Part shown: one piece after another, positions 29,183-64,000 of the stretch
Layout of the letters: each line of letters begins with the position of its first letter
Numbering within the stretch: the first letter of the stretch is position 1
Origin: an uncultured Carboxylicivirga sp.
Lineage (GTDB): Bacteria > Bacteroidota > Bacteroidia > Bacteroidales > Marinilabiliaceae
DNA length: 64,000 bases
Assembly (NCBI GenBank): GCA_947503525.1
Contig: CANNEA010000008.1
Location: 62,001 to 126,000 of the forward strand
Direction of reading: 5' to 3'
The notes under the pieces: generated by a model
Databases searched by the model: none
Seen by the model: the letters and a program-made list of their open reading frames with translations, nothing else
Told to the model about the DNA's origin: nothing
Program-made: the position numbers and the translations under genes

Positions 29183-29193
29183 ACTTGATTGAT

Positions 29194-34330: not shown

Positions 34331-35707
34331 ATGATTAATAGATATATATTGTTAATAATAATGGCTTTTTCAATGGTAGCTTGCGACAGCTATTTAGAGC
34401 TGAATCCGAAGGATTCTATCATTGATGAAGATGCCTTTAAGTCAATAGAGGATGTTCAGGAAGGAATGATAGGCGTGTACGCTACTTTAAATACTCAAGC
34501 AATGGTTGCCATTTCATCGAGAGCAAGTGATGACGTACGCTTAAGTGAACAGAATCGAGGACAGGGAATTGCTAATCATAACTGGGAATTTACGTCCTCA
34601 AATGGTGAGTTTTATACAATGTGGATGTACATGTATCATGCCATTGATAGGGCAAATCGTATGATTGAAATTTCAAAAGCTTTTGATGCGGAAGATGTTC
34701 GTATTAAGCAGGTCATAGGGGAATGTTTGTTTATTCGTGCCTACTGCCACTCTGAATTACTTCGGGGCTATTGCGATAACCTTAATGGCGATAGTGACTT
34801 AGGGATCCCTTATATGAAACAATCTCAGATTGGTCAACCCCAGAGGGCTAATCAAGCTGCTATATATGCCGATATACATGCTGACCTTGCAGAAGCAATT
34901 AATTTAATGTCTGGCGATTTTGTTTCTAACACAGCTAATAAAATTGCAGCTCATGCCTTACGAGCTCGTGTTGCTATATATCAACAAAATTATGATTTAG
35001 CCATTGAGGCAGCTTCAGAAGTAATTGATAATTCTGGTTTTACCCTGGCCGACACCAGCGAAGTGAATGATGTATGGAACGATGTTTTTGAGTTAGATGA
35101 AAAAATCGAAGTTCTCTTTAAACGTTCTCGTGTTGAAAATGAATCAGCACTAGGTAATATTTACATTGATCCGGCCAACGGCGAGATCTACTTCTCTCCA
35201 AGTCATGATTTAATGAACCAGTACACCAATGATGATTATAGAAAAGATGCTTATTTCGGTCTTAACTCGCAAGGAAACGATGTGGTGGCAAAACATGATG
35301 GAAAGGGTGTTGGACCCAATATCGTGGATGAAAAAATTCTACGTCTATCAGAGCAATACCTGATACGTGCTGAAGCCTACATCATGAAGAATATGATGAC
35401 TGAAGCAAAACAGGATCTTGATTTATTGCGAAAATGTCGGATCGAAAATCCAGTACCTGTTCCTATTGGTGACCAAACAGCTATGATGAAAGCATTGCAG
35501 GATGAGCGACGCCGTGAGATGCCTTATGAAGGCCATCGATTTATCGACTTAAGAAGATGGGGGCAAGGTATAAAGCGTTTGCCTGAAGATTCAGAATTAG
35601 CATCGGGTGTGGAATTACCTGCTGGTGACTACCGTTTTATTTTCCCTATCCCTCAGAACGAGATGTTTGCCAACGATAATATGGTACAAAACAAGGGGTA
35701 TAATTAG
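34331..35707 (+). CDS. susD: SusD/RagB-family glycan-binding lipoprotein
   Basis: The 458-residue lipoprotein has its lipidation Cys at residue 18 (FSMVACDSYLEL). It shows the usual SusD start (YLELNPKDSI), TPR-like helices (HALRARVAIYQQNYDLAIEA), and a conserved C-terminal section (LRLSEQYLIRAEAYI, DERRREMPYEGHRFIDLRRW). It forms the lid on SusC and binds the released oligosaccharide outside the cell. It follows susC by 21 bp and is surely co-transcribed with it. Confidence 0.96.
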   Translation: MINRYILLIIMAFSMVACDSYLELNPKDSIIDEDAFKSIEDVQEGMIGVYATLNTQAMVAISSRASDDVRLSEQNRGQGIANHNWEFTSSNGEFYTMWMYMYHAIDRANRMIEISKAFDAEDVRIKQVIGECLFIRAYCHSELLRGYCDNLNGDSDLGIPYMKQSQIGQPQRANQAAIYADIHADLAEAINLMSGDFVSNTANKIAAHALRARVAIYQQNYDLAIEAASEVIDNSGFTLADTSEVNDVWNDVFELDEKIEVLFKRSRVENESALGNIYIDPANGEIYFSPSHDLMNQYTNDDYRKDAYFGLNSQGNDVVAKHDGKGVGPNIVDEKILRLSEQYLIRAEAYIMKNMMTEAKQDLDLLRKCRIENPVPVPIGDQTAMMKALQDERRREMPYEGHRFIDLRRWGQGIKRLPEDSELASGVELPAGDYRFIFPIPQNEMFANDNMVQNKGYN

Positions 35708-47411: not shown

Positions 47412-49229
47412 GTGAAGAAAAGAAAAAGATCGTTTAATAATTTATCTGTAAGAAAGAAGCTTCTTTTGGGCTTTATGGTATCATCTGTTTTCATTGTAGG
47501 AGTTGGCTTAATAAGTTTAACGGCAATTCATAAGTCGCAGGAAACGGCGCATGTTAGAGCAGAATTAGAAAATCAGGTAGCCTTGGTTCGCAATGTAAGA
47601 ATGCATCTGATTGCTTACAGGCTTGATCACGTGGCATACAGAAGGGGAATTATTCGTAATGAGTTTAAGGGCCTACTTAAGAAGAATCAAGCATTAGTGG
47701 GTTTACTTAATGGTGAAGAAAAAAGAAAGATGGATTCCATTCAAACTGATCTTAAACGAAGGGCAAAGAATGTGAACTTATATATTGAGAACTCAATCCA
47801 GTACGATAGTTTGGTCGGAAGTATGTTTAATCAGGTCAACCAATTGAATGTACTCATAAATAAGAAGCATAAAGGTATTGTGGTTTCAGGAAATGTGAAT
47901 GATAAATTGCAATGGTTAAAAACTCGTATGGCATTCGTTAAACTGCGCCCAGGAAATGGTAAGTTTAATGACCTTTTGTCGCCAGTTACTCTCTTATCAA
48001 GTGCTTTGTTAAAGGATAAGCATATGCCTGCTTATGAATTAAGTACAAAGTTACTTGAAAACTTGGCTGCATTTGAAGATATTTATAACAATGATAAGAT
48101 TCTATATAGAAATTCTGATGGTAAATTCCCTGATATTGTTAGTTATACGAATAATTTAATAAAGGAACACAGTGCCAGAAATGATAAAGTCTTAAATTTT
48201 ATATGGTACTCGATTATATTGCTAACTGTTTTAGGTTCTGTGTTTGTATATGCCATTTCAAGGTTTACGTCTAATTCGACTATAAAGGGCATTACCAGTT
48301 TAGATAATATATCAAATGAAGTTAGTAATGGTAAGATCGGAATTATTATTCCTATTACACTACTGGAGCGAAAGGATGAGATAGGTTCCCTTGCTAGATC
48401 ATATCATAGGATGTTAGAACAAATTAATAAAGTGGTTAAAGAGATTACTGAGAGTGCAACCCAAATTCTAACAACAGGACAGGAATTAAGTGATAACTCA
48501 CAATCCATATCCGTATCAGCTAATCAGCAGGCGTCATCTTTGGAAGAGATATCCAGTACGGTAGAGGAAATTGTTGCTAATATTCAGCAGAATACTAATA
48601 ATGCTATATCATCAAAGGAAAAGGCTCAAATATCGGCTAAGGGCTTAATGCAGTTAAAGGAACAAAATGACAAAGTTTTTAAGTCATCATTGGATATTGA
48701 TGATAAAACAAAAATCATTAGTGACATGGCCTTTCAAACGAATATCCTATCATTGAATGCTGCAGTTGAGGCTGCTGTGGCAGGTTCTCACGGTAAGAGC
48801 TTTGGGGTGGTTGCAGCTGAGGTGAAAAAGTTGGCTGATAGAAGTACGGAAGCGGCCAAAATAATTGTTAAGCTAACCAAAGAAGGCATTGAGTTAACAA
48901 AAAAGGGAAGTGAATTGGCAGAGCTGGTTTTACCTGAGATGGAAAGTACGAATCATCTGGTAAATGAAATTGCTGTGGCTAGTCAAGAGCAACAGGACGG
49001 GGTTGAGCAAATTAACACATCAATTGGAATTCTAAACCAAGTGTCACAAGAAAATTCGATAAGAGCAGATCGTTTATCTGAAAATGCTGTTAGCTTAAAT
49101 CAAATGTCTGATAAACTAACATCTGCTATTGATTTCTTTTCTATTGAGTCATTTGAACATCAGGAGAATAAGAAGAACACCATGAAAAATATTGCCATTA
49201 AATTTAGGTTGATTAAACAAGCTAACTAA
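47412..49229 (+). CDS. Methyl-accepting chemotaxis protein
   Basis: The 605-residue membrane receptor starts at GTG 47412. Transmembrane helices lie at about 17-38 and 263-282 around a helical periplasmic sensor of about 220 residues. A HAMP linker (about 283-340) and the cytoplasmic signalling hairpin follow; the tip reads FQTNILSLNAAVEAAVAGSH and then GKSFGVVAAEVKKLADRS. The tip is well conserved and should bind CheA/CheW, although the usual AARAGE reads AAVAGS here. No che or flagellar gene is in the window. It lies between a glycoside hydrolase (76 bp upstream) and another (41 bp downstream), so co-expression with the degradation enzymes is likely. The ligand is unknown; a sugar or oligosaccharide signal is inference. 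Confidence 0.93.
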   Translation: MKKRKRSFNNLSVRKKLLLGFMVSSVFIVGVGLISLTAIHKSQETAHVRAELENQVALVRNVRMHLIAYRLDHVAYRRGIIRNEFKGLLKKNQALVGLLNGEEKRKMDSIQTDLKRRAKNVNLYIENSIQYDSLVGSMFNQVNQLNVLINKKHKGIVVSGNVNDKLQWLKTRMAFVKLRPGNGKFNDLLSPVTLLSSALLKDKHMPAYELSTKLLENLAAFEDIYNNDKILYRNSDGKFPDIVSYTNNLIKEHSARNDKVLNFIWYSIILLTVLGSVFVYAISRFTSNSTIKGITSLDNISNEVSNGKIGIIIPITLLERKDEIGSLARSYHRMLEQINKVVKEITESATQILTTGQELSDNSQSISVSANQQASSLEEISSTVEEIVANIQQNTNNAISSKEKAQISAKGLMQLKEQNDKVFKSSLDIDDKTKIISDMAFQTNILSLNAAVEAAVAGSHGKSFGVVAAEVKKLADRSTEAAKIIVKLTKEGIELTKKGSELAELVLPEMESTNHLVNEIAVASQEQQDGVEQINTSIGILNQVSQENSIRADRLSENAVSLNQMSDKLTSAIDFFSIESFEHQENKKNTMKNIAIKFRLIKQAN

Positions 49230-49270: not shown

Positions 49271-51439
49271 ATGAAAAAAATATTGACACTTATTACTTTG
49301 AATTTTGTACTCTTGATTACCTATGCTCAGAGCACAATATATACTAATGATATGGAGTATGTAGTAGGTGATGTAAAACAGGCATTTATTCAAAATAAAA
49401 TAACAACAGAAACTCAAGCTCAATACTTGCTAATTGGACTTAAAAATCTAGGTGTCAATGCTGTTCGTGTTCCAATCTTTGCAGAAGGTATGGATCCTAA
49501 TAAACCTATGTTTGATTACTTCTATAACTTAGTTGTTTCAGAGGGGTTACCAGTTTTTGCCAATCCAGCACAACATTCAGGCGGACAGAGGATTGCAAAT
49601 GGTATATTAGAAGGTGTTGGAGGAAGTGTACTGGATAATCCTCTGAAAACTAATGTTCTGATTAATCGAATAAAAGATTTTGCGGCCGAGTATGAGTGTA
49701 AGTGGATTAATCCATTTAACGAAGATGGCGCTCCTGGTGGAGCATGGAGTACGAGTCAAATGAACACTATTTTTTCAAGCCTGTACGGAAATGTAAATGG
49801 TGCAGAACTCATAGGACCATGTGTTTGGGGAATTCCTGCCAGCATAAGTGTTTTAGAGCAAACCACATTACCTGTTTATATTACAGTGGCAAGTACTCAT
49901 AATTTGGGTTACAATCATGATAAGTGGCTTGATTTTATAAATGTGGCGAAAGCGAATGGCCTTCCTGTGTGGGATTCAGAAGTGAATCACAATATTTCAG
50001 AATCAGACAATAAGGGAACTCGTCTGGAAGTTGCGATAGCTTCTGGGGTAGATGGATTGGTAATGTATAATATATGGAATACAGTTAACCTTAGTAATGG
50101 AGCTATAAGTAATTGGGGTAAAATACACATGGGCATGTACTTGAAAAATATGCCTCTTTTAACTTCTAATTATCAGATAAATGGTGGTTCTTGGGCGGAA
50201 GGCTCTATTGTTTCTGCCGATGCATGGAATACTATAAATCTTGCACCTCTGCCTAATAATGGTTCATGGTCGTGGACCGGACCCAATGGATTTAGTGCAA
50301 GCACTCGTGAAATTTCTATTAGCAATTTAGCTTCAAGTGATGCAGGAAATTACGTAGCATCATATACCAGTCCTGATGGAGATGTCAATCACATTGTTAT
50401 AACAGTTGGTTTAAATTGTATAGTATCTCCTTCAATTACGCCATATTATCGAATTAATGAGGTGTCATGGAAAAGTAATACCTCCATTAATTTGGATGAG
50501 GGTGATCAATTGGAAATTGGACCTCAATCTTCTTCTGCGGGCACCTGGATATGGAGTGGTCCCAATGATTTTACATCAACAGCTCGTGAAATTACCATTT
50601 CAGACATATCAAAGAGTGATGAAGGTGAATATACTGTAACAAGAATAGGAAGCGATGGTTGCACTGCCAGTAAGGCGTTTAATGTTACAGTCAATGATGT
50701 TCAAGTGCCATTTCCAGATCCTGATGCCAGGTATTATATCGATTGTCCGGAATGGGACTTGCGCTTGGGTGCAGATGGGCAAAATGCTTTTACAACAACT
50801 ACTTCAGAAACAGATTTTAATGTGCAGTGGACCGTAAAGGAATCTACTACTACGGGATATTATTATCTTGACTGTATAGGAAGTGTATACCGTCCAAGAA
50901 TTAGAACGGATAGAAGTAGCGTGCCTAATATGACAACAAGAGGTTCAACGGGTAATCAAGCCAAATGGCTCCTGACTGAAAGTGCCAATAATACTTATGT
51001 TTTGTCTACATCATTAGATTACACATCGATGCCTAACTTACAAGTTAACTCTGCAGGAGAGGTGCTTATGACTTCTGCTTCCACTGTTGATAATACCGTT
51101 AAATTCACATTTACTGATATTGAAAAGGGGCTTGTTGAAAATACTGTTACTGCCATTAGCCCAAATCATCCGGATGCCTTTATTGATATTAAATTTCCAG
51201 GTGTTTTAACGTCGACAATGAAAGAATTTAAACCACTAAATATTACTGGTGAAATAACAAATTACCAATTAGAAATCTACTCGGTTCAAGGTAAACACCT
51301 GTTTACCACGAATGACATGGAAACAGCATGGATCCCCTCAGGAGTTCAAAATGGACTATATGTATATGTAGTTAGTTATAAGGGTGAGAATGGAACTTCC
51401 CGCTCAGCTAATGGTAAGGTGTTGTGTATTATTCAGTAA
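49271..51439 (+). CDS. Hydrolase of unassigned family with Ig-like and trefoil-like modules
   Basis: The 722-residue secreted protein has a signal peptide (1-20) and a compact catalytic-looking domain (about 21-297) nearly the same as that of the gene at 60726. Two conserved acids fit a retaining clan GH-A enzyme: Glu151 in WINPFNEDG and Glu237 in VWDSEVNH. The order (NE motif, GPCVWG, THNLG, then WDSE) resembles small TIM-barrel families such as GH128, but I cannot place it. Two Ig-like repeats follow (GSWSWTGPNGF and GTWIWSGPNDF; about 298-475). Then comes a domain resembling a beta-trefoil (about 480-625), and a C-terminal beta-domain of T9SS type (about 645-722). It is 41 bp from the chemoreceptor gene and 18 bp from the sulfatase. 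Substrate unknown; likely a polysaccharide. Confidence 0.72.
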   Translation: MKKILTLITLNFVLLITYAQSTIYTNDMEYVVGDVKQAFIQNKITTETQAQYLLIGLKNLGVNAVRVPIFAEGMDPNKPMFDYFYNLVVSEGLPVFANPAQHSGGQRIANGILEGVGGSVLDNPLKTNVLINRIKDFAAEYECKWINPFNEDGAPGGAWSTSQMNTIFSSLYGNVNGAELIGPCVWGIPASISVLEQTTLPVYITVASTHNLGYNHDKWLDFINVAKANGLPVWDSEVNHNISESDNKGTRLEVAIASGVDGLVMYNIWNTVNLSNGAISNWGKIHMGMYLKNMPLLTSNYQINGGSWAEGSIVSADAWNTINLAPLPNNGSWSWTGPNGFSASTREISISNLASSDAGNYVASYTSPDGDVNHIVITVGLNCIVSPSITPYYRINEVSWKSNTSINLDEGDQLEIGPQSSSAGTWIWSGPNDFTSTAREITISDISKSDEGEYTVTRIGSDGCTASKAFNVTVNDVQVPFPDPDARYYIDCPEWDLRLGADGQNAFTTTTSETDFNVQWTVKESTTTGYYYLDCIGSVYRPRIRTDRSSVPNMTTRGSTGNQAKWLLTESANNTYVLSTSLDYTSMPNLQVNSAGEVLMTSASTVDNTVKFTFTDIEKGLVENTVTAISPNHPDAFIDIKFPGVLTSTMKEFKPLNITGEITNYQLEIYSVQGKHLFTTNDMETAWIPSGVQNGLYVYVVSYKGENGTSRSANGKVLCIIQ

Positions 51440-51457
51440 AACTTAATATGTGTTTTT

Positions 51458-52900
51458 ATGATACTTAAAAAAGTAAGCTTGCTGTCAATTGGTCTGTTAT
51501 TGGTATTTTTTAATTGCGTTGCTTCTGATACAGGTCGAAAGAACCATACTCAGCCTAATATTATTTTTATTATGGCCGATGATCTGGGTTATGGTGATTT
51601 AGCATGTTATGGGCAAACGAAAATTAAAACACCAAATCTGGATAGAATGGCAGCTGAAGGGATTCGATTCACCGATCATTATTCAGGTTCAACAGTCTGT
51701 ATGCCATCACGTGCCAGCCTGTTAACAGGTTATGACCAAGGGCATGCTTCGGTAAGAGGAAACCCGGTTTGGACTCAGAGTGGTAAGCCGGTGAACCTTC
51801 TACCCAATGAGCTAACGGTAGCCAATGAGTTAAAAAGTGCGGGATATCGAACAGCAGTAATTGGTAAATGGGGCTTGGCAGAAGGAAACACGATTGGTAA
51901 TATGCCGTCTGAACATGGTTTTGATTACTTTTTGGGATATAAAAGACATGGCCATGCGCATCATTATTATTGGGATACTTTATATCAGAATAATGAAGTC
52001 TACTTACTTGAAGGTAATGATTTTAAGACCAAAAAGGGAAAGTATACGCATGATGTGTTTGTAAATGAAGCATTGAATTTTATTGCGAAAGAAAAGGAAA
52101 AACCTTTCTTCTTATACTTAGCATTAACTATTCCTCATTTAGAACTCACAGTTCCTCAAGAATCAAAAGAGCCATATTTAAGTTTAGGCTGGCCTGAACG
52201 TAAGATGAACACTAAAGGTCATTATAAAAATGATGCAGAAGGTAATACTACTTTTGCCGGTATGATTTCTCGCATGGATAGAGATATTGGAGTTTTGTTT
52301 GAAAAACTAAAAGAGTTTGGTATTGATGAAAATACAATAGTGTTTTTTACCAGTGATAATGGCCCTGAATACGAAAAGAAAGATCGTTTTTTTAATAGTA
52401 ATGGAGATCTTAGAGGCGGGAAGCGTGATTTATACGAAGGTGGTATTCGCATACCATTTATTGCCCGATATCCTGGAAAGATTAAAGCCGGTTCTGTAAG
52501 TAACCATATTTCTGCATTTTGGGATTTTTTACCAACAGCCTGTGACTTGGCCGGTATAACTCCTAGTCATAAAGATATTAATGGTATTTCGTTTTATCCG
52601 GAATTAATAGGAAATAAGGATGAACAACAAGAACACGATTATTTATACTGGGAGTTTAACGAGCGCCAAGGGCCTATACAGGCCATTAGACAAGGGGATT
52701 GGAAATTGGTTTATAAGCTGGAAGGGAAGCCGGAATTATACAATCTGTCTAAGGACTTATCTGAGACAAATAACCTAGCATTACAAGAAACAGAAAAGTT
52801 AAATGTGATGTTGGAAATTTTGAAAAGAGTAAGAACGGAACATTCAGAATTTCCACTTGAAACAAGAGAATTAGCTATAAAGAAACGGAAGCAGAATTAG
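51458..52900 (+). CDS. Family S1 sulfatase
   Basis: The 480-residue exported sulfatase has the formylglycine motif VCMPSRASLLTG with Cys81 as the residue to be matured. Metal ligands are seen in IMADDLGYGD (Asp41, Asp42) and FFTSDNGPE. GKWGLAEGN and the late GDWKLVYK motif also fit family S1. A signal peptide covers about residues 1-22; whether Cys20 is lipidated is uncertain because the preceding residues FFN are not a typical lipobox. It removes sulfate esters from glycan or oligosaccharide. The subfamily is not assigned. The maturation enzyme (FGE or anSME) is not in this window. It lies 18 bp after the previous gene. Confidence 0.93.
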   Translation: MILKKVSLLSIGLLLVFFNCVASDTGRKNHTQPNIIFIMADDLGYGDLACYGQTKIKTPNLDRMAAEGIRFTDHYSGSTVCMPSRASLLTGYDQGHASVRGNPVWTQSGKPVNLLPNELTVANELKSAGYRTAVIGKWGLAEGNTIGNMPSEHGFDYFLGYKRHGHAHHYYWDTLYQNNEVYLLEGNDFKTKKGKYTHDVFVNEALNFIAKEKEKPFFLYLALTIPHLELTVPQESKEPYLSLGWPERKMNTKGHYKNDAEGNTTFAGMISRMDRDIGVLFEKLKEFGIDENTIVFFTSDNGPEYEKKDRFFNSNGDLRGGKRDLYEGGIRIPFIARYPGKIKAGSVSNHISAFWDFLPTACDLAGITPSHKDINGISFYPELIGNKDEQQEHDYLYWEFNERQGPIQAIRQGDWKLVYKLEGKPELYNLSKDLSETNNLALQETEKLNVMLEILKRVRTEHSEFPLETRELAIKKRKQN

Positions 52901-52952
52901 CTAATTTCCTAGTGCTATTTTTATGTAGTAAATTACAATTAACCAAACAAAT

Positions 52953-55502
52953 ATGAAGTCACTGCAGAGAAGTTTACTATTTATTTCAAGTTTGTTATTT
53001 CTTACGTTTTGCTCAAACCCAAAGGAACTGCCAGAAATTAATTATGACTTTGAAAATGCATCAGTTAAAACCAAAGGTAATAAACTAATTGTTTCTACCG
53101 GTAGGGTTGAACGCGTGTGGGAATTAACAGATGCTGGATTATTAACGGTCAATTTTCGGGATTTGAAGAGTGGTGGGATAACTAGTCATAAGCCAAAAAA
53201 CATTGCTGCTGATTGGGCTTACTTTGGCTTAATTGATGAACATACAAAAGGAAAGTTAAAAAGTCTGACTGCTGTTGAATCAAACGATCAGAATTTTACA
53301 TCGAATCATATTGAAATAATAGCTGAGTTTGATTATCCAGAAGTAGAAAGTGCAGTTAAATATGTAATATGGGCCTATCCAGATGCTCTTGGCATAAGAA
53401 CCCAACTTAATATTAAAGGTGAGGCTGAAAAGTACATCAATAATCCTGATTTAATAAAAAGGGAAGACATTCAATTTGATCTTATAGGTGGTAAGAACAA
53501 AAATGATTATGGTGCTGGTGCCCATGCCGAGAGATATATTACTACAATAACTCAAAGTGAACAGACTGTTCAGTTTCATGCAAAAGGTCTGGATTCAAAA
53601 AAGCAGTATAAACTAGGTTTTACCTGGTGGGATTTCTCGGGTAAAGGAATTGTTCAGGATGTGTGTATAAGTAGTGTCGATGGAGAAACTAATGTAAAAG
53701 TTCTATCATCTGCGAAGCTGCCTGACTTTAAAAATAAGGGTGAAAAGTATGAAACCATTGTTGTTGATCTTCCCTCGGAAACATTAATGGATGGAACATG
53801 CCGTATCTTCTTTGATAAGTTAGAAGGAGATAAGGCACAGGTATCGGAGTTATTCATCTATGAAAAAGGGGGCCGTGAAATAGAAATGACAAATGGTACT
53901 TTAGAACGTGTCAATGAACTTAGATCAGATAAACCCAACGGGTATTCTTTAGTCGGTTATTTAGATTGTGGCGAACCTATACAAGGCGAAAAAATGATAG
54001 CCACAGGACGAGTTGACTATCTACCTGTCAATACTTCGGGAACCCAACGCACTTACATTGGGTATTATAACGATACACAGCATAGAAATAAGCCGGAGAC
54101 ACCCATATTAAAAGAAGCGTCTGTTGTTGAGTTTGTAGCGAATAAGGAAAAAATTAACTGGTCTAACATTATTTGTGTAAACAAAGAAGGCAATGGCTTG
54201 ATGATGGTTAAAGAATCGCATAAGTGCGTCAACCAATATGGAGTCGAAACCGGAGAATTCATACTTGATCAAAATGGGCTGAGTAATACGGGAACATCTT
54301 TGTTTCCATCTGAAATTTCAGCTGATGAATACAAATGGTGCTGGGCTTCATGGAGCATTCTTTATTCAGGTGGTCAGGATGAATGTGAATTAGCATTGAA
54401 GCAATTCGATCGCTTGCGTTACCCTGTCGATCCGGATCGTGATATTTATGTACAAGCCAATACATGGGGCTCAGGTAATGGCAAAGAAGCTTCAAAAGAG
54501 TTAAATGTATTACGTGAACTGGAAAGTCAGGCAGATTTAGGAATTGATATCCAACAAATAGACGATGGTTGGCAAACTAAACAATGGAACTTGCGCGACG
54601 ACTGGTTTCCTGAGGGATGGGAAAATGTAGTTGCTAAATCCAAAGAAACAGGAGTGAAAATAGGCTTGTGGGCTGCCGCAATGCCAGTAACCTACGAATC
54701 CCTAAAATGGAATTATGATGAGGCTGGATTTGTAACATACAAACTTGACTTTGCCAGCTTGGGCAACCATGCTAATATGGAAAAGTTAATAGGTAAGGTC
54801 AGGAAGTTTATTGATTATTCTGATCATAATGTACGTGTAAACTGGGATTTAACAGAAAATGCTCCCCGCTTTGGATTTTTCTGGGCACGAGAATACGGAT
54901 GTATCTATCTAGAGAACCGAAAGCCAGATAAACCAGACAATGTTGTGTATATACCTCATTTGGTTTTGCGTGACATTTGGCATGTGTCAAAGTATACAAA
55001 CATCAATAAATTTCAAACTACTATTCAAAACATTGATCGTACTAATAAAAGAGTAAGTGATGCCTATTTGCATAACCACCCTTATTCAGTTGCTATTGGT
55101 TTGGTTGGGACGCCATTGTTCTTTCAGGAGACTCAGCATTATTCTGAAGAGGCTAGAGCGCAAATAAAGCCATTATTGGCTACTTATAAAAAACATCGTG
55201 CAGAGATGTACGAAAGCTATGTCTTTCCTATTGGGGATGAGCCAAATAATAAAAACTGGACTGGGTTTCAATGGGTGAATCCTAAAGAAAACTCTGGTTA
55301 TTTATTGGTTTTTAGAGAGTTAGATAATAAGGACTCAAGAATGGAAATTGGCTTAAGGTTCTTCAAAAATAAAACGATAGAACTTACAAATATTGAGACA
55401 GGTGAAGTTTGGCAAGAAACCATTAATCAGAATGGAGAATTGAACATAGAACTTGGGCAACCTGCAAGTTATAAGTATATGCGTTATAAATTGATTAATT
55501 AA
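52953..55502 (+). CDS. GH36-like (clan GH-D) exo-glycosidase lipoprotein
   Basis: The 849-residue lipoprotein is lipidated at Cys20 (LFLTFCSNPK). An N-terminal beta-sandwich contains an inserted galactose-binding-like domain (about 165-310). The TIM barrel begins near residue 495 and shows IQQIDDGWQ (533-541), typical of GH36/GH27 alpha-galactosidases. The nucleophile is probably Asp599 in YKLDFASLG, which replaces the usual KWD-type motif. The acid/base may lie in NWDLTENAPRFG (Asp632 or Glu635), where GH36 usually has a Cys/Gly-rich motif. A small C-terminal beta-domain ends the protein. Alpha-galactosidase is the best guess, but these motif changes suggest a different sugar or a new subfamily. 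It lies between the sulfatase and esterase genes, with 10 bp to the latter. Confidence 0.75.
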   Translation: MKSLQRSLLFISSLLFLTFCSNPKELPEINYDFENASVKTKGNKLIVSTGRVERVWELTDAGLLTVNFRDLKSGGITSHKPKNIAADWAYFGLIDEHTKGKLKSLTAVESNDQNFTSNHIEIIAEFDYPEVESAVKYVIWAYPDALGIRTQLNIKGEAEKYINNPDLIKREDIQFDLIGGKNKNDYGAGAHAERYITTITQSEQTVQFHAKGLDSKKQYKLGFTWWDFSGKGIVQDVCISSVDGETNVKVLSSAKLPDFKNKGEKYETIVVDLPSETLMDGTCRIFFDKLEGDKAQVSELFIYEKGGREIEMTNGTLERVNELRSDKPNGYSLVGYLDCGEPIQGEKMIATGRVDYLPVNTSGTQRTYIGYYNDTQHRNKPETPILKEASVVEFVANKEKINWSNIICVNKEGNGLMMVKESHKCVNQYGVETGEFILDQNGLSNTGTSLFPSEISADEYKWCWASWSILYSGGQDECELALKQFDRLRYPVDPDRDIYVQANTWGSGNGKEASKELNVLRELESQADLGIDIQQIDDGWQTKQWNLRDDWFPEGWENVVAKSKETGVKIGLWAAAMPVTYESLKWNYDEAGFVTYKLDFASLGNHANMEKLIGKVRKFIDYSDHNVRVNWDLTENAPRFGFFWAREYGCIYLENRKPDKPDNVVYIPHLVLRDIWHVSKYTNINKFQTTIQNIDRTNKRVSDAYLHNHPYSVAIGLVGTPLFFQETQHYSEEARAQIKPLLATYKKHRAEMYESYVFPIGDEPNNKNWTGFQWVNPKENSGYLLVFRELDNKDSRMEIGLRFFKNKTIELTNIETGEVWQETINQNGELNIELGQPASYKYMRYKLIN

Positions 55503-55512
55503 TATATATTCT

Positions 55513-57657
55513 ATGAAACTATTTGTTGTCTTTTTCTCTGTGTTAATACTTACAATATCCGGTGTTTATGCTCAGGAAACTATTGTATGGCTGAAGAATA
55601 ATCAAGGCATTATTGAAGACGATAATGGATCGGTAATCTTGTGGGAAAATCAAATAGATGTTTATGGTGATGCTACGCAAAGTAATTCAGCACTAGGTGG
55701 CGAACAATTACAAGAAACCTACCCGGGAAAAGTGAATGTAGGTTTTAGTGCAGATGGATCATTTCTTGAACTTGAAGAATCAGGTGCTTATTTTTCAGAT
55801 AATTCGTTTAGTGTTTTTTATGTAGGAAAAGTTGGCGATGTAGGGTCAGTTGCCGGTCTTTTTGGCAACTTTAGAGTAGATAGCAGTAATAATTGGGATA
55901 GCTGCTCGGGGCTACGTTTTGTGCATAAATCCAATGGCGATTTAGCTTTTCAATATGGTAAACCTGCTTATAAGCACATTGTCTTAAATAAGCTGCCCGA
56001 AGATGAGTTTTTCTTTTTTGGCTTTAGTCTTGATGAAGAAGGTAATTATATCTATTTCGATAATAGTACTATTTTGTTAAAAACCGGACAAATAGATGGT
56101 GAAATATTTCACAATACTGACAATCTGGTTATTAATTTATTGCACCAAATGGGAGGTTCATATACCTATGATCATACAGAAGTGGCTGAGCTGGTAATTG
56201 TGGATGGAGCTTTTAGTACAGACCAATTTGCAGAGATGCAGACGCGCTTGTCAAACGATTATCCTGAACTCGTAAAATCTGATTTTGCAGTTGAAGCGGT
56301 TCTTCCTGATGATAGAACAAATTTATTAGCTAGCGATAACTTAAGTATAAGCTTTAGTCAAAATATCGACCCATCTTCAAAATATCCTAAAGTACTTATA
56401 AATAAGAGTGGAATAGAGGCGATAGGTAGTTGGAATTTGGTTGAAAATACAATGACATTTGAGAATAATGAGGATTGGCCTTTAGGCGCATTAGTAACAG
56501 TAAAACTAGATGATGGATTAACATCAACAGATGGTGTTGCTCTTGATATTGCATCTAGATCAGAATATAATTTTATTGTGAAAACTGGAGTTAGTTATGG
56601 CGTTGAAACTATTGAAATTGATCCCATGGCAACTGTTGATTTTCCGCAGGAAGGACATAAATTACCTCTTAAATTAGTTTTGCCTGTTCAAAGAGATACA
56701 AAAATACCTGTTCATATTTGGGTGCATGGTGGAGGATGGTCTGGAGGTACTGCCTCAACTTCAGCAGCAAGTCTTTCGCCCCATGGAAGCTATTTAGCTG
56801 ATAATTTAGGCATAGCCACATTGGGTATTTCTTATCGATGTAAAGGTTCAAGCGGAAACTTTACTTTGGCCATGGAAGATATTGATGCGGCTTACCAATG
56901 GGCTGTCGCCAATACTGAAACATATAATTTTGACATGAGCAAGGTGTTTTTTAGTGGCGGATCAGCAGGATCTCCACTAGCGTCATTAGCTGCTCAGCGT
57001 TATTTTTCAGTAATTGGTTTTATAGGCTTTAATGGTGTTTATGATTTTGTAAACGATCAGGGTAGTTTCGGACAATGGAATGGATATGGTCAGGAAGATC
57101 CAAGTGCAGAAGCTAATTCTGCCATCTTTCAACTCAGAAACAACCCTCCAGCAACAATTCTAATGCATGGCGATGAAGATACTACTATTCCATATACGCA
57201 AAGCACATTGTTTGCTGATAAAATCAATTCCTCGGGAGGTGAGGCCATCACCGTTATTTATCCCGGACAGGTACATGCCTTCTTTAACTTAGGTAAAGAA
57301 GAATACGAAGATGTTTTATATGAGATGGTCAACTTTATGACTAAGGTGCTTAATAATGAAGATGTAAACACAAGTATAATAGCTGAAAATAATCAAACCT
57401 CGACGGCGCTTAAGGTATTTCCCAATCCTGTTAAAGAGGGTGCTGAAATTGAAGTCGTTTTCGACTCAGATCTTAAAAAATTAAATGTTGAGATTGTTAA
57501 TATGGCTGGCTTAATAGTTTTAAAAACAACTTTAAATGTCGCAAAGCAATCTGGATTGATTTCTTTGAATTCTAATGCACTTATGGCAGGTACTTATATA
57601 TTGAAATTATCAGGAGAGTCAATTTTAGAAACTCGGAAAATTGTAGTTCAGAAATAG
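55513..57657 (+). CDS. Modular carbohydrate esterase-like alpha/beta hydrolase, T9SS
   Basis: The 714-residue protein has a signal peptide (1-20). An N-terminal concanavalin-like sandwich (about 23-252) and an SbsA/Big_5-like Ig domain (about 258-357) precede an alpha/beta hydrolase (about 365-615). The hydrolase has an HGGGW oxyanion motif (405-409), nucleophile Ser484 in SGGSAGS, an acid Asp in HGDEDTTIP (554 or 556) and His588 in GQVHAFF. A T9SS type A domain (VFPNPVKEGAEI) ends the protein. Deacetylation of an acetylated polysaccharide at the cell surface is the likely role. Clear match to the alpha/beta-hydrolase family; the ester is not known. It follows the GH36-like gene by 10 bp. Confidence 0.82.
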   Translation: MKLFVVFFSVLILTISGVYAQETIVWLKNNQGIIEDDNGSVILWENQIDVYGDATQSNSALGGEQLQETYPGKVNVGFSADGSFLELEESGAYFSDNSFSVFYVGKVGDVGSVAGLFGNFRVDSSNNWDSCSGLRFVHKSNGDLAFQYGKPAYKHIVLNKLPEDEFFFFGFSLDEEGNYIYFDNSTILLKTGQIDGEIFHNTDNLVINLLHQMGGSYTYDHTEVAELVIVDGAFSTDQFAEMQTRLSNDYPELVKSDFAVEAVLPDDRTNLLASDNLSISFSQNIDPSSKYPKVLINKSGIEAIGSWNLVENTMTFENNEDWPLGALVTVKLDDGLTSTDGVALDIASRSEYNFIVKTGVSYGVETIEIDPMATVDFPQEGHKLPLKLVLPVQRDTKIPVHIWVHGGGWSGGTASTSAASLSPHGSYLADNLGIATLGISYRCKGSSGNFTLAMEDIDAAYQWAVANTETYNFDMSKVFFSGGSAGSPLASLAAQRYFSVIGFIGFNGVYDFVNDQGSFGQWNGYGQEDPSAEANSAIFQLRNNPPATILMHGDEDTTIPYTQSTLFADKINSSGGEAITVIYPGQVHAFFNLGKEEYEDVLYEMVNFMTKVLNNEDVNTSIIAENNQTSTALKVFPNPVKEGAEIEVVFDSDLKKLNVEIVNMAGLIVLKTTLNVAKQSGLISLNSNALMAGTYILKLSGESILETRKIVVQK

Positions 57658-57700
57658 ATTATTTGACAACCCCATCCACAACCAGGAAATTATTATAGAT

Positions 57701-59293
57701 ATGAAAAAATGTATATACTTCTTCGCAGCTTTATTAATCCTTTTGTCTTCGTGTCAGAATAAAGACAAAAAGAGCCTCATCAAGACACAACAAAAAAAAC
57801 CTAATGTACTTTTTATTCTTGTAGATGATTATGGCTACATGGATTGTAGTGTAATGGGTAGCAAATATTACGAAACACCTAATGTTGATCGTATCGCCAA
57901 AGAAGGGATGATTTTCACCGATGGATATGCTGCTTGCCAGGTTTGTAGCCCTTCACGTGCAAGTATTATTTCGGGCAAATTTCCGGCTCGCCATGGAATT
58001 ACCGATTGGATTGGTGCCAAAACGGGAGAAGCATGGAGTAAAAGAGGACGAGCAACTCAATTGCTTCCGCCAGAGTATGCTCACACATTAGCCACCGAAT
58101 ACACAACCCTTCCCGAGGCGATGAAAGAGGCGGGTTATAAAACATTTTTTGCGGGTAAATGGCACATCGGAGGTAAAGGGTCGTGGCCCGAAGACCATGG
58201 ATTTGACATTAACAAAGGAGGCTGGGATGCTGGCAGTCCAAAGGGTGGATACTTCTCTCCTTATCAGAACCCAAATTTAGAGAGTGGTCCAGATGGAGAG
58301 AATCTTTCCATGCGTTTGGCACAAGAAACTGTTGATTTCATTAGAAATAATAAGGATACCACTTTTTTCGCTTACTTATCATTTTATGCCGTTCATGGGC
58401 CTATCCAAACAACTCAAAATAAATGGGCTAAATATCGTAATAAGGCTGAAGCAATGGGAGTTGCTGAGACAGGTTTTGAAATGGGGCATTTCTTACCTAT
58501 ACGTCAAACTCAAGATAATCCGGTTTACGCCGGTTTAGTAGAGGCTATGGACGATGCAGTAGGTGTTGTTCTTACGGCATTAGAAGAAATGGGTTTGGAT
58601 GAGAATACAATTATCTGTTTTACTGGCGATAATGGTGGGGTTGCTGCAGGAGATGCGTTTGCAACATCAAACTTACCTCTACGTGCCGGAAAAGGTTATC
58701 AATTTGAAGGTGGTATTAGAGAACCATTTTTTATTAAAGTTCCGGGATTAGGGAATGGTAAAACATCTAATACTCCTGTAACAGGAACAGACTTTTACCC
58801 TACAATACTTGAGTTAGTTGGAGAACAATTAAAGCCAGAGGAGCATACTGATGGACTAAGCTTATTGCCACTTTTAAAAGGTGAAAATTTAAGTGAACGG
58901 GCGTTAATTTGGCATTACCCACATTACGGAAATCAAGGTGGTGAGCCATCATCGATTATACGTGAAGGTGATTGGAAACTGATCCATTATTACGAAGATG
59001 GCCATGAAGAATTGTACAATCTTAATAATGATTTGGGTGAGACAAACGACCTTGCTTCAGAAAATAGTGACCGTGTTAAGCAAATGAGCACGATATTATT
59101 TAAAATGCTTAATGAAATGGGAGCTTGTTACCCAGAAAAAGATCCAACATGGACAGCTGAACGCGAAAAGAAACATCGCGATAATGTGATTAATAAACAG
59201 TTGCCTAAACTTGAAAAACAACGCATGAAATTTTTATCCAAGGATTTTGATCCAGGTAATCAGTGGTGGGGCAGTATGGTGGTTGAAGATTAA
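57701..59293 (+). CDS. Family S1 sulfatase lipoprotein
   Basis: The 530-residue sulfatase is lipidated at Cys18 (LILLSSCQNK). The maturation motif is VCSPSRASIISG with Cys82. Metal ligands appear in LVDDYGYMD (Asp42, Asp43) and FTGDNGG; AGKWHIGG and HGPIQ also fit family S1. The segment ARHGITDWIGA after the active site and the EDHGFD region differ from the first sulfatase, so the two are in different subfamilies and probably remove sulfate from different positions. It is 43 bp after the esterase and 23 bp before the GH29 gene. Confidence 0.93.
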   Translation: MKKCIYFFAALLILLSSCQNKDKKSLIKTQQKKPNVLFILVDDYGYMDCSVMGSKYYETPNVDRIAKEGMIFTDGYAACQVCSPSRASIISGKFPARHGITDWIGAKTGEAWSKRGRATQLLPPEYAHTLATEYTTLPEAMKEAGYKTFFAGKWHIGGKGSWPEDHGFDINKGGWDAGSPKGGYFSPYQNPNLESGPDGENLSMRLAQETVDFIRNNKDTTFFAYLSFYAVHGPIQTTQNKWAKYRNKAEAMGVAETGFEMGHFLPIRQTQDNPVYAGLVEAMDDAVGVVLTALEEMGLDENTIICFTGDNGGVAAGDAFATSNLPLRAGKGYQFEGGIREPFFIKVPGLGNGKTSNTPVTGTDFYPTILELVGEQLKPEEHTDGLSLLPLLKGENLSERALIWHYPHYGNQGGEPSSIIREGDWKLIHYYEDGHEELYNLNNDLGETNDLASENSDRVKQMSTILFKMLNEMGACYPEKDPTWTAEREKKHRDNVINKQLPKLEKQRMKFLSKDFDPGNQWWGSMVVED

Positions 59294-59316
59294 TAATGAC
59301 TTATAAACTAAATACA

Positions 59317-60693
59317 ATGAAGAAATTACTTATTTTATTAGTGTTGTTTTCTTATGTAATGAGTTCATTTGCGCAGCAGAAAACGATATGGAATGAAACC
59401 GAAGAGGAAAAAACTGAACGTATGTTGTGGTGGACAGAAGCTCGCTTTGGGATGTTTATACATTGGGGATTGTACGCACAAGCAGCACGTCACGAATGGG
59501 TGAAAAAGCGCGAGCATATTTCCACTGAAGATTACCAAAAGTATTTCGATGTTTTTGATCCAGACCTATTTGATCCTAGTGAATGGGCAAAGAAAGCTAA
59601 AGCGGCTGGTATGAAGTATGCTGTAATTACTACTAAGCATCACGAAGGTTTTAATATGTTTGAGTCGGAATTTACCGACTACAACGTGATGAACACCCCT
59701 TATGGTAAAGATATCATTAAAGAATGGGTGGATGCATTTCGCGCGGAAGGACTTAAAATAGGGTTTTATTACTCACTTATTGATTGGTATCACCCACATT
59801 TTACTATTGATACAAGGCATTCGATAAAAGTGAATAAGCAAAAGGACTTCGACAAGCTAAATAAAAACAGGGACATGGGTATTTACAGGGAATATCTAAA
59901 AAATAATGTTCGTGAAATCCTGACTAATTATGGAGAAGTAGATATACTGTGGTTAGATTTTTCATATCCTGGTAAAAATGGTAAAGATAAGGATGATTGG
60001 GGTTCGGTAGAACTACTTAAAATGGTGCGTGAACTTCAACCCAATATCTTAGTAAACGACCGTTTGGATTTAAAGGATTACAAGGGGGGCTGGGACTTTA
60101 CAACGCCTGAGCAATTTAAAGTTGATAAGTGGCCCGAAATAGATGGAAAGAAAATTCCATGGGAAACCTGTCAGACTTTCTCTGGTTCATGGGGCTATTA
60201 TCGCGATGAGCATACCTGGAAAGATAATAAGCAGCTTTTGACCTTATTGATAGAGTCAGTAAGCAAGGGGGGTAATGTGCTACTAAATGTAGGACCAACA
60301 GCCAGAGGTACATTTGATCACCGTGCTGATGACGCTTTGGAAGATATGGGAGAATGGATGAAGTATAATTCGAGATCAATATATGGTTGTACTCAAGCTC
60401 CTGAAGAATTACTTGCGCCAGCCAATACATTGTTTACTTTCAATCCTAAAACAAATAGATTGTATGTACATTTATTAGACTACCCTTTGCAAAATTTCTT
60501 AATGCCTGGTTTTGCGGGTAAAATAAAATATGCCCAGTTTTTACATGATGCTTCTGAAATAAAAGTAGGAAAGAAACATGGTGCATGGGGCAACGATGGC
60601 ACAAACGAAAATGATGTTAACCTTAAGCTGCCGGTAACAAAGCCAAATGTTGAAATTCCTGTGATTGAAATATTTCTTAAAGACAACAAATAG
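59317..60693 (+). CDS. GH29 alpha-L-fucosidase-type enzyme
   Basis: About 458 residues from the ATG at 59317, which gives a clean signal peptide (MKKLLILLVLFSYVMSSFA); an upstream ATG at 59296 would add seven residues. The GH29 signatures are all present: WWTEARFGMFIHWGLYA, YAVITTKHHEGFNMF, GLKIGFYYS, nucleophile Asp214 in ILWLDFSYPG (numbered from 59317), and GNVLLNVGPTARG. GH29 enzymes release alpha-L-fucose; some porphyran-locus members act on alpha-L-galactose instead. The surrounding sulfatases and galactosidase-like genes leave both open. It lacks an added carbohydrate-binding module and is probably periplasmic. Confidence 0.93.
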   Translation: MKKLLILLVLFSYVMSSFAQQKTIWNETEEEKTERMLWWTEARFGMFIHWGLYAQAARHEWVKKREHISTEDYQKYFDVFDPDLFDPSEWAKKAKAAGMKYAVITTKHHEGFNMFESEFTDYNVMNTPYGKDIIKEWVDAFRAEGLKIGFYYSLIDWYHPHFTIDTRHSIKVNKQKDFDKLNKNRDMGIYREYLKNNVREILTNYGEVDILWLDFSYPGKNGKDKDDWGSVELLKMVRELQPNILVNDRLDLKDYKGGWDFTTPEQFKVDKWPEIDGKKIPWETCQTFSGSWGYYRDEHTWKDNKQLLTLLIESVSKGGNVLLNVGPTARGTFDHRADDALEDMGEWMKYNSRSIYGCTQAPEELLAPANTLFTFNPKTNRLYVHLLDYPLQNFLMPGFAGKIKYAQFLHDASEIKVGKKHGAWGNDGTNENDVNLKLPVTKPNVEIPVIEIFLKDNK

Positions 60694-60725
60694 TTAGCAT
60701 TTTATTAAAGCATAAATGTATTGAA

Positions 60726-62279
60726 ATGAAACAATTGATATCAATGCTTTTTTTATTTGCATTACTTCCTGGTGCATTTGCACAAAGTTCCGTTTATACC
60801 AACGATATGGATTATGTATTGGGAGATGTAAAGCAAGCTTTTATTACAAATAAGATAACAACAGAAGCACAAGCTGACAACCTAATTATAGGGATGAAAA
60901 ATCTGGGTGTAAATGGGATCCGTATTCCTATTTATGCAGCAGGGCTTAATCCTAACAAAACCATGTTCGACTATTTCTACAACAAAGCAGTTGTAGAAGG
61001 CTTTTTAATATTTGCTAATCCGGCGCAATCAAGTGGTGGCCACCGAATAGCCAATGGTATTCTTAATGGAGAATTGACATCTGTTCTTAATGATGCTATT
61101 GCAACCAACAGGCTTGTCAATAGAATTAAGGATTTTGCCACAGAGTACCCTTGTAAATGGATCAATCCATTTAATGAAGATGGAAGGCCTGATGCCGCCT
61201 GGAGCACAAGTCAGATGAATACAATTTATTCTTCTCTCTATAATAATGTGAATGGAGCAGAATTAATAGGTCCTTGTGTTTGGGGGATACCAGCAAGTAT
61301 TGATGTTTTTAATAATACCGATATAAGCAATTATATTACGGTAGCTGCCACTCATAATTTAGGTTTCAATCATTCTTCATGGCCTACTTTTATTTCTGCT
61401 GCCACTGCTAAGAGTTTACCTGTTTGGGATTCTGAGGTTAATCATAATGATGCAAAGGATAATGGTACACGTTTAGAAAAGGCTTTAGAATATGGGGTAG
61501 ATGGTTTGGTTTTATACAACATATGGAATACAATCAGCTTAACGGATGGGTCAGTTAGTGCAGCAGGTGATGAAATCATGACTTTATGTTTAAAAAATTA
61601 TACTAAAGGTGTCAACCTTGCGCTTAACGGCACCGCTACGCAATCATCCACAAACTATAATTCGCCTGCTCCTTTGGCTATTGACGGAAATACCAATGGA
61701 AACTGGGGTAGTGGTTCGGTTACTGTTACAAATAGTGAGGCCAATGCCTGGTGGCAAGTGGACCTAGGGTCAGACAAGACAATAGGTGATATTAGGGTAT
61801 ACAATAGAACTGATGCCTGTTGCAAGGATCGAATGTCCAATTTTACGGTATCTGTTATTAATAGTAATGGTGCAGTAACGCATACCGAAACATTTACTAA
61901 TTATCCTGATTTTGCAGTAACAACTAATGCTGGAAATGTTAAGGGGCAGATTATCAAAGTACAACTTAATATTACCAGTGCGTTAACATTGGCAGAAGTT
62001 GAAGTATATCAAGGTGACGTAAGTAACGACATCTCTTCACCTCTGGGATCATTATCTGAAATCCTTATTTATCCGAATCCAGCATCTAACTTTATTACAA
62101 TACAAGGAGTCAATGGTGCTTTATTTGAGCTATATAATAGCCAGGGTGAATTAATGCTGCGCGGTCCTATTGAAAGTAATAAGCATAGAGTGAATATTAA
62201 TGATTTTAATGTAGGATTATATTTTGTGAAAATTAATGATGGAGGAGTGATTACAAATCACAAAATAATTAAAAAATAA
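60726..62279 (+). CDS. Hydrolase of unassigned family with F-type-lectin-like domain, T9SS
   Basis: The 517-residue protein has a signal peptide (1-19) and a catalytic-looking domain (about 20-293) nearly the same as that of the gene at 49271, with Glu151 (WINPFNEDG) and Glu237 (VWDSEVNH) at identical positions. It then has a discoidin-fold domain (about 296-436) that resembles F-type lectins/CBM47: NLALNGTATQSST, WWQVDLGS, then YNRTDACCKDRM. The NRTD and CC pattern is that of the fucose site, but the usual SCTHT histidine segment reads SVTVT here. A T9SS type A domain (ILIYPNPASNFITI) ends the protein. It is 32 bp after the GH29 gene. It probably attacks the same polymer as its paralogue while binding it through a different module. 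Confidence 0.75.
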   Translation: MKQLISMLFLFALLPGAFAQSSVYTNDMDYVLGDVKQAFITNKITTEAQADNLIIGMKNLGVNGIRIPIYAAGLNPNKTMFDYFYNKAVVEGFLIFANPAQSSGGHRIANGILNGELTSVLNDAIATNRLVNRIKDFATEYPCKWINPFNEDGRPDAAWSTSQMNTIYSSLYNNVNGAELIGPCVWGIPASIDVFNNTDISNYITVAATHNLGFNHSSWPTFISAATAKSLPVWDSEVNHNDAKDNGTRLEKALEYGVDGLVLYNIWNTISLTDGSVSAAGDEIMTLCLKNYTKGVNLALNGTATQSSTNYNSPAPLAIDGNTNGNWGSGSVTVTNSEANAWWQVDLGSDKTIGDIRVYNRTDACCKDRMSNFTVSVINSNGAVTHTETFTNYPDFAVTTNAGNVKGQIIKVQLNITSALTLAEVEVYQGDVSNDISSPLGSLSEILIYPNPASNFITIQGVNGALFELYNSQGELMLRGPIESNKHRVNINDFNVGLYFVKINDGGVITNHKIIKK

Positions 62280-62465: not shown

Positions 62466-64000
62466 ATGAGAAATCTAATTAATACAGTTGTATTGTTGAC
62501 AGCATTACAGCTTAGTGCTTGTACTTCGTACAAGGATTATAAGAATGTAAATTGGGAAGAGAAAAGTCCTGCTGATTGGGAAAATCCAGCTGTGTACGAA
62601 ATTAATAGGGAAGCTCCAAGAGCGTATTATATACCCTTTGCTTCAGAGCAGGAAGTTGATAGGGATAATGTTTGGGCATCTTCGCTTATTCAATCTTTGA
62701 ATGGAGAATGGGCATTCCATTTAGCACAAAATCCCTCGGAACGTCCCTATTACTTCTTTAAAGATGATTTTGATACACGCGAATGGGGAAGCATCCAAGT
62801 TCCGGGTAATTGGGAATGTGAAGGGTATGATTATCCGATTTATACCAATTCAAAGTATCCTCATGAAAAAACGCCTCCAACTATTCAAAAGCACTATAAT
62901 CCGGTAGGTTCCTACAAAAGAACATTTGAAATCCCTGAGAGCTGGACAAATAAAGATGTTTTCTTACATTTTGGAGCTGCAGGTTCAGCTGTTTATGTTT
63001 GGGTTAATGAGCAACAAGTTGGTTATTTCGAAGATTCAAAAACACCCTCAGAATTTAATATTAGCAAATATTTAAAAGAAGGCCTTAACACTTTGGCTGT
63101 TGAAGTTTATAAATGGAGTGATGCCAGTTATCTAGAGGATCAGGATTTTTGGCGATTAGCTGGAATCACTAGAGATGTGTTTTTGATGGCGCGTAATCCT
63201 CAGTATATAAGAGATTTTAAGGTGAAAACTGGCTTGGCTGATGATTATTCTACAGGTACTTTCTCTTTAACTACTGAAGTACCTGGAGAAGGTGTGGCTA
63301 CTGTTGAAGTTAAATTATTAGAAGGAACAACCGTTGTTAAAGAATTCACCGCGGAAGTAGAAAATGGCTTAGCTGAATTTACTGCCGAGTTAGCTAATGT
63401 GAAAAAGTGGACTGCAGAAACACCACACCTTTATGAGCTTTTAATCACATTGAAAAATAAAGAAGGTGAAGTAAGTGAAGTGTTGCGTCAGGATGTTGGT
63501 TTCCGACGCATCGAAATCAAAGATGCTCAATTACTGGTTAATGGTCAGTATATTTACTTAAAAGGTGCTAATCTACACGAACATCATGAGGTCAACGGCC
63601 ATGTTGTGGATGAAGCAACCATGTTGAAAGATATTCAGGTGATGAAGAGTCATAATCTGAATGCGGTCCGCACTTCTCATTATCCACAGCCGGAGCGTTG
63701 GTACGAACTCTGCAACCAATATGGTTTGTATTTGGTAGATGAAGCCAATATTGAGTCGCACGGTATGGGCTATGGTAAGGCCTCTCTTGCTAAAGATCCT
63801 AAGTGGGGTGAAGCCCATTTATATCGCACCAAAAACTTGTTTGAACGTGATAAGAACCAACCGTCTGTGATCATTTGGTCCTTAGGAAACGAAGCTGGTA
63901 ATGGCATTAACTTTAATGCGACCTACGATTATTTAAAATCAGTTGATAGTACTCGTCCTGTGCAATATGAACAAGCGCATGGGGGTAGAAATACTGACAT
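62466..64000 (+). CDS. GH2 beta-galactosidase-type lipoprotein (3' end outside window)
   Basis: The frame opens at ATG 62466 and runs off the right edge, giving about 511 residues. A lipoprotein signal ends at Cys19 (LQLSACTSYK). The GH2 order is clear: a jelly-roll sugar-binding domain (VPGNWECEGYDYPIYTN, VGSYKRTFEIP), an Ig-like domain, and the start of the TIM barrel (GANLHEHHEVNG, NAVRTSHYPQPERWYELC, VDEANIESHG). The acid/base Glu is visible in WSLGNEAGNG; the nucleophile lies outside the window. LacZ-like beta-galactosidase is the best call, though other GH2 activities occur. It starts 186 bp after the previous gene and may have its own promoter. Confidence 0.93.
   Translation, partial: MRNLINTVVLLTALQLSACTSYKDYKNVNWEEKSPADWENPAVYEINREAPRAYYIPFASEQEVDRDNVWASSLIQSLNGEWAFHLAQNPSERPYYFFKDDFDTREWGSIQVPGNWECEGYDYPIYTNSKYPHEKTPPTIQKHYNPVGSYKRTFEIPESWTNKDVFLHFGAAGSAVYVWVNEQQVGYFEDSKTPSEFNISKYLKEGLNTLAVEVYKWSDASYLEDQDFWRLAGITRDVFLMARNPQYIRDFKVKTGLADDYSTGTFSLTTEVPGEGVATVEVKLLEGTTVVKEFTAEVENGLAEFTAELANVKKWTAETPHLYELLITLKNKEGEVSEVLRQDVGFRRIEIKDAQLLVNGQYIYLKGANLHEHHEVNGHVVDEATMLKDIQVMKSHNLNAVRTSHYPQPERWYELCNQYGLYLVDEANIESHGMGYGKASLAKDPKWGEAHLYRTKNLFERDKNQPSVIIWSLGNEAGNGINFNATYDYLKSVDSTRPVQYEQAHGGRNTD

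Follow-up and report, generated by a model that had tools for sequence, protein, structure and literature searches.

A compact domain with a predicted GH30-related clan GH-A barrel in two putatively secreted proteins of an uncultured Carboxylicivirga

Two putatively secreted proteins share one domain

The sequence studied here is a stretch of 64,000 nucleotides from an uncultured Carboxylicivirga sp. (contig CANNEA010000008.1 of assembly GCA_947503525.1, positions 62,001 to 126,000; hereafter the window), which contains the genes of two proteins with signal peptides recognised by eye, protein A (gene at 49271) and protein B (gene at 60726; Table 1). A preliminary description of the window had proposed that these genes share an almost colinear domain with Glu151 (in FNED) and Glu237 (in DSEV) at the same positions. 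Both open reading frames are indeed present on the + strand, and a BLASTP comparison of the pair aligned them from residue 1 onward with 190 of 293 residues identical (65%), 2 gaps and an E-value of 4e-135, the two glutamates carrying the same residue numbers in both proteins. This similarity is far beyond chance. Downstream of the shared domain, the C-terminal modules of A and B differ. At E <= 0.001 these two genes hold the only copies of the domain in their own genome.

The domain family comprises 30 distinct complete domains, including the two of the window, from Flavobacteriaceae, Marinilabilia and Pontiellaceae among others. The set contains all distinct complete domains that had been retrieved; exact duplicates, fragments at locus ends, one 47-residue remnant and weak hits of the type of A4, a GH30-like family (GH, glycoside hydrolase) described below, were excluded.

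Predicted fold and conserved residues

AlphaFold modelled the catalytic domain of protein B with confidence as a (beta/alpha)8 barrel (predicted local distance difference test score, pLDDT, 93.6; predicted template modelling score, pTM, 0.91), and both this predicted structure and its fold matches correspond to the barrel of clan GH-A. Enzymes of this clan are defined by an Asn-Glu pair where strand 4 ends and a further Glu where strand 7 ends. In domain numbering, in which E132 and E218 stand for Glu151 and Glu237, the model places N131-E132 just past the short strand 4 (residues 126-127) and E218 within strand 7 (residues 214-219), which is the placement known from the clan. The Asn-Glu past strand 4 and the Glu of strand 7 are invariant in 30 of 30 family members. 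It had been suggested beforehand that the FNE and DSE acids fit clan GH-A and that a structure prediction should be used as a check. The predicted barrel, the places of the two glutamates relative to strands 4 and 7, and the invariance of both are in agreement with that suggestion, and the earlier reading of the catalytic logic is probably correct.

Relation to known enzyme families

The catalytic parts of proteins A and B matched no model in Pfam or NCBIfam (for NCBIfam, the two window proteins were scanned), and 21 family members searched against Pfam gave scattered matches, each in one or two members, with a best E of 0.049. Within the HMMER filters, none of the 21 matched the GH30 models PF02055 and PF14587 at E <= 10, nor was there any match to the models of GH113 (PF22612), GH5 (PF00150) or GH128 (PF11790). 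When PDB sequences were searched with the domain, by single sequence and by profile, no match rose above chance level (best E 0.69, 0.59 and 1.1), a plasmid collection held no relative at E 1e-5, and the titles, abstract openings and some passages of the open-access literature searched contained no description of the domain family. As judged by these searches, the compact domain lies outside every family model searched (Pfam and NCBIfam) and outside the PDB sequences. The preliminary description had named it as a candidate for an undescribed family, which holds with respect to these collections, but the domain is not without kin, as its profile ties it to A4.

A4 occurs in the same loci as the compact family, and its profile, made from 10 members of a 12-protein cluster, matches GH30 structures (XynC, 2e-17). 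Profile comparison of the compact family with A4 gave E 3.9e-10, and 6.9e-11 over 194 columns with 30 rows, whereas the best of 20 column shuffles reached 0.025; of the twelve columns that are invariant in A4, six align with D15, R47, A78, E132, H191 and E218. The two families differ in that A4 aligns with the whole length of XynC (3-390), and the identity between them is about 14% over 197 columns. The A4 members of L004, L003 and L013 (Table 1) had no match to the Pfam GH30 models at E <= 0.01, and one weak GH59 match was seen. Comparison sets for GH30_2, GH5 and PF02055-type GH30 were taken from 20 relatives. The A4 profile matched both GH30 sets (3e-16 and 6e-15) but not GH5 (0.033), and the bridge from the compact family to GH30 proper therefore goes through A4.

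GH30 enzymes also ranked first when the model was submitted to Foldseek. With the GH30 xylanases XynC (3gtn) and Xyn30D (4qaw) the compact family has in common the predicted clan GH-A barrel, and both glutamates, the strand-2 Arg and the strand-6 His align via A4; it differs from them by its domain of only 272 residues, the absence of a Pfam GH30 match and the lack of a fused side beta domain. The homologue of L004 has 293 residues in all, and in L025, L026 and L027 the barrel reaches to within a few residues of the protein end. A passage of PMC7285738 terms the side beta domain obligatory for GH30-8 enzymes. GH113 mannanases (5ylh) gave the best VIA-align result (Z 19.5, root-mean-square deviation 3.3, 239 aligned residues) and are of similar compact size, but the identity is 10%, there is no Pfam match and the Z value is close to those of the GH5 and GH30 rows; among the 20 relatives, GH113 appeared as one sub-threshold match. 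The GH128-like proteins of the related loci (PF11790, family A2) are likewise compact glycosidase barrels, and DSEVN resembles their TEYN motif. Kinship with A2 was not supported by hhalign comparison (E 0.11 over 14 columns; 0.0034 with 30 rows, the best of 20 shuffles giving 0.058), nor was kinship with the A3 family of the window (E 0.42 and 0.38).

C-terminal modules

With regard to the C-terminal parts, an F-type-lectin-like domain in protein B and immunoglobulin (Ig)-like and trefoil-like modules in protein A had been proposed. The first of these stands, since the module of protein B matches F-type lectins over its sequence (six solved chains, E 9.7e-25 to 2.8e-11; compare 3cqo, 3le0 and 2j22). 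The Ig-like modules remained below the Pfam cut-off (Ig_2, 21.7 bits vs 27), and the trefoil label was not confirmed: the best Pfam match had E 0.41, and the AlphaFold model of the module at 50714-51208, made from a three-row alignment, was useless (pLDDT 29.9).

In F-type lectins, fucose is bound by a His together with an R-x-D...R motif. Comparison with two reference chains shows that protein B retains the R-x-D part but not the full motif; in all 13 module-bearing family members the canonical His has given way to Val, Ile or Leu, and in two of the 13 the motif Asp to Asn. Because the canonical His is lost in all of them, fucose binding is not to be assumed. The module may nevertheless hold the enzyme to its target.

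Distribution and phylogeny

The domain family is real and rare. A scan of bacterial and archaeal genomes gave 15 loci in 13 genomes (Flavivirga, Flavicella, Polaribacter, Mariniflexile, Flavobacterium algicola, Algibacter, Marinilabilia rubra and two Pontiellaceae), two pairs of these loci overlapping, each pair on one contig. In sampled whole genomes, counted at E <= 0.001, there was one carrier among 395 genomes of the phylum (the window's own) and three among 295 of the order (its own included). The family of G021 had four carriers in 299 genomes (the Flavicella genome included), the relatives of the window genome two in 60 (its own and, going by contig coordinates, that of Marinilabilia rubra) and one small family two in three. 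Within the window's genus the domain was found in its own genome and in none of 13 other species searched.

In a maximum-likelihood tree of the 30 domains, that of protein A grouped with L004, L005 and L011 of Flavobacteriaceae (support 100/98), whereas that of protein B fell outside this group on a poorly resolved branch. The whole architecture of protein A is also found in L005 and L011. The four module types require four changes on the tree, and as few were seen in 0 of 200 label shuffles (the 10 unlabelled rows not being counted). As judged by the tree, A and B represent two old lineages. The patchy occurrence together with the tree points to horizontal transfer of the domain family. In Marinilabilia rubra (L050/L147, near 588240), a short family remnant with a stop codon lies about 4 kb from an intact copy.

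Gene cluster and possible substrate

The region looks like a polysaccharide utilisation cluster because of a SusC/SusD pair upstream and a GH2 gene downstream (Table 1). As stated in the preliminary description, the genes of A and B bracket genes for a sulfatase, a GH36-like protein, an esterase and a GH29 protein; a second sulfatase gene at 57701 lies there as well, and the GH36-like match is weak. Partners in the 15 named loci were counted by BLASTP, with E < 1e-20 and a minimum of 100 aligned residues. All 15 had a sulfatase like those of the window; the esterase and GH97 were present in nine each, GH128-like and A3 proteins in seven each, A4 in six, and GH2, GH29 and the window-type SusC in four each.

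Table 1. Features of the window and of A4 in related loci (T9SS, type IX secretion system)
Feature	Position	Strand	Evidence or remarks
Protein A, 722 residues	49271..51439	+	Signal peptide (by eye), GH-A-like catalytic domain, two Ig-like modules, unassigned module, weak T9SS tail
Catalytic domain of A, residues 20-293	49328..50149	+	Alignment of 30 members; identity with protein B
Glu151 codon of A, proposed acid/base, just past strand 4	49721..49723	+	Aligned with QNEP Glu of XynC via A4
Glu237 codon of A, proposed nucleophile, in strand 7	49979..49981	+	Aligned with MTEV Glu of XynC via A4
Two Ig-like modules of A, approximate limits	50159..50695	+	Sub-threshold Pfam Ig matches; repeat seen on alignment with L005 and L011
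Module of A common to L005 and L011 (earlier label trefoil-like, unconfirmed)	50714..51208	+	Alignment
Protein B, 517 residues	60726..62279	+	Signal peptide (by eye), GH-A-like catalytic domain, F-type-lectin-like module, T9SS tail
Catalytic domain of B, residues 20-291	60783..61598	+	AlphaFold model
Glu151 codon of B, proposed acid/base	61176..61178	+	Predicted model, alignment
Glu237 codon of B, proposed nucleophile	61434..61436	+	Predicted model, alignment
F-type-lectin-like module of B, residues 296-430	61611..62015	+	Pfam and PDB matches; canonical motif His is Val
T9SS sorting tail of B	62067..62276	+	TIGR04183, 4.1e-12
SusC/SusD pair	31211-34309 and 34331-35707	+	Upstream, same cluster
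A3 family, two proteins, no assigned catalytic domain	40581-43172 and 43376-47335	+	Homologues in related loci
Sulfatase	51458..52900	+	PF00884, 2e-62; closest solved chains 7an1, 7ana (1.6e-96, 1.6e-89)
GH36-like, weak Melibiase match	52953..55502	+	PF02065, E 0.013, below Pfam cut-off
Secreted esterase (BD-FAE) with T9SS tail	55513..57657	+	6e-25
Second sulfatase	57701..59293	+	PF00884, 4e-53; closest solved 6ust (1.1e-117), kappa-carrageenan S1_16 sulfatase 9fo1 (1.7e-112)
GH29 alpha-L-fucosidase family	59296..60693	+	PF01120, 2.8e-90
GH2, runs off window end	62466..63998	+	PF02836, PF02837
A4 members	L004:18376-20457; L017:15179-17338; L003:15301-18555; L013:4664-6880		

Both sulfatases of the window show CxPSR, which we take to be the sulfatase motif, and the chains 7an1 and 7ana are presumably galactose-3-sulfate sulfatases of subfamily S1_20. 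On account of the closest solved chains of the sulfatases and of the GH2 and GH36-like partners, a sulfated galactan is favoured as the substrate, as it appears to fit the neighbours better than a fucan backbone. The latter was considered in view of the F-type-lectin-like module and the GH29 gene. The bonds cut by known GH-A families are mostly equatorial, and this preference together with the broken lectin motif led us to set it aside. The GH2, GH36-like, GH97 and A3 neighbours resolve no linkage. A partial parallel to the window cluster is the second cluster of Zobellia (GH2, GH29, two GH28, sulfatases and SusC/D), which according to a passage of PMC5698469 is induced by carrageenans. For Pontiella sulfatireligans, a carrier of the domain, PMC7356697 describes growth with kappa- and iota-carrageenan, with chondroitin sulfate and with several fucoidans, a range that does not decide the substrate.

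Interpretation and alternatives

The predicted model and the alignments make it quite probable that the shared domain of about 272 residues is a minimal retaining beta-glycosidase barrel of clan GH-A, a distant relative of GH30 without the side domain, which occurs in two secreted forms and probably acts on a sulfated galactan. The reaction would most likely be a double displacement with retention at a beta-linked sugar, with Glu151 past strand 4 as the acid/base and Glu237 in strand 7 as the nucleophile. The two secreted versions, with their different C-terminal modules, would probably cut the backbone or the branches of the galactan, the neighbouring sulfatases, esterase, GH29, GH36-like and GH2 proteins would remove sulfates, esters and fucose or galactose branches, and the SusC/SusD pair would import the products.

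A number of findings weigh against this interpretation. D15, D133 and D216 are invariant as well, so that the catalytic pair cannot be picked out by conservation alone. On the profiles, the family is linked to GH30 proper indirectly: with 21 rows, hhalign matched the compact family to GH30_2 (4.5e-4) and GH5 (4.4e-4) alike and to PF02055-type GH30 at 0.047, and with 30 rows the values were 2.1e-5 (still weak), 5.6e-4 (best shuffle 0.011) and 0.061, respectively. By HMMER alone, hits were obtained to only two of the 12 A4-cluster proteins (E 4e-7 to 1e-6) and to L023 (6.4e-4). The substrate, moreover, is read entirely from neighbouring genes, among which the GH97, GH128-like and A3 ones do not fix it. 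No GH16, GH82 or GH127 protein was seen among the 21 window open reading frames of at least 200 residues or among 20 scanned neighbour proteins (part of all neighbours), and a typical anhydrogalactose carrageenan cluster is therefore not indicated.

The recent founding of the marine families GH168, GH174 and GH187 shows how the domain might already be a CAZy family, either a recent marine family of this sort or a GH30 subfamily, that is not yet in Pfam, NCBIfam or the PDB. We regard this as unlikely, though a serious contender, as no PDB chain matches the domain by sequence and, going by reported critical residues alone, FunA of GH168 (D206, E264) and Fun174A of GH174 (D119, E120, E218) have residues of another type or at other intervals than E151/E237; for GH187 the passage concerned gives the critical residues as not determined. 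The domain could also be an extremely shortened GH30 (or GH113 or GH5) enzyme to be filed in that family, which is what the Foldseek ranking and the best profile match, to the GH30-like A4 of the same loci, would lead one to expect; given the failure of the Pfam models of all three families, we consider it doubtful. The lectin-like modules carried by the copies might also suggest a protein that has the GH-A fold but no catalytic activity, or activity of another kind, such as a barrel that binds glycans. This is very improbable, because all 30 members, the stand-alone protein of L004 included, have both glutamates and the strand-end residues around them unchanged.

The pair had also been described as a duplication. 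A and B are the only two copies in the genome and their starts lie about 11 kb apart, as would be expected after a recent local event, but the grouping of the protein A domain with L004, L005 and L011, apart from that of B, indicates that the pair did not arise by local duplication, and A has its whole architecture in common with two of these relatives. Although the place of B itself is poorly resolved, we regard a local duplication as extremely unlikely.

If the GH30-related barrel outlined above is accepted, it may further be proposed, tentatively, that it founds a new family of clan GH-A, active without a side domain on a sulfated galactan that has no described endo-hydrolase, with paired, differently targeted secreted forms, present in unrelated marine bacteria and with its cluster spread by transfer. 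Such a family would extend by one catalytic family the enzymes available for dismantling sulfated algal polysaccharides, the slow breakdown of which bears on marine carbon storage, and would imply that the side domain termed obligatory for GH30-8 is dispensable for the function of a GH30-related barrel. The stand-alone homologue of L004 makes the proposal directly testable.

Other observations in the window

On inspection by eye, the A3 proteins contain NE and TE motifs; neither Pfam nor the best 60 PDB matches listed revealed a recognised catalytic domain in them. The one at 40581 shares 52-53% identity with six flavobacterial proteins of related loci. A methyl-accepting chemotaxis protein (47412-49229; MCPsignal, 3.8e-30), encoded within the cluster directly before the gene of protein A, may couple sensing to movement. 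Farther upstream, 2531-27049 encodes three adjacent giant subtilase proteins (2551-2571 residues) that are homologous to one another and carry T9SS tails as well as HYDIN-like Ig repeats, and 27515-30879 a tandem pair of secreted proteins, 44% identical to each other, of which the T9SS tail is the only part clearly recognised.

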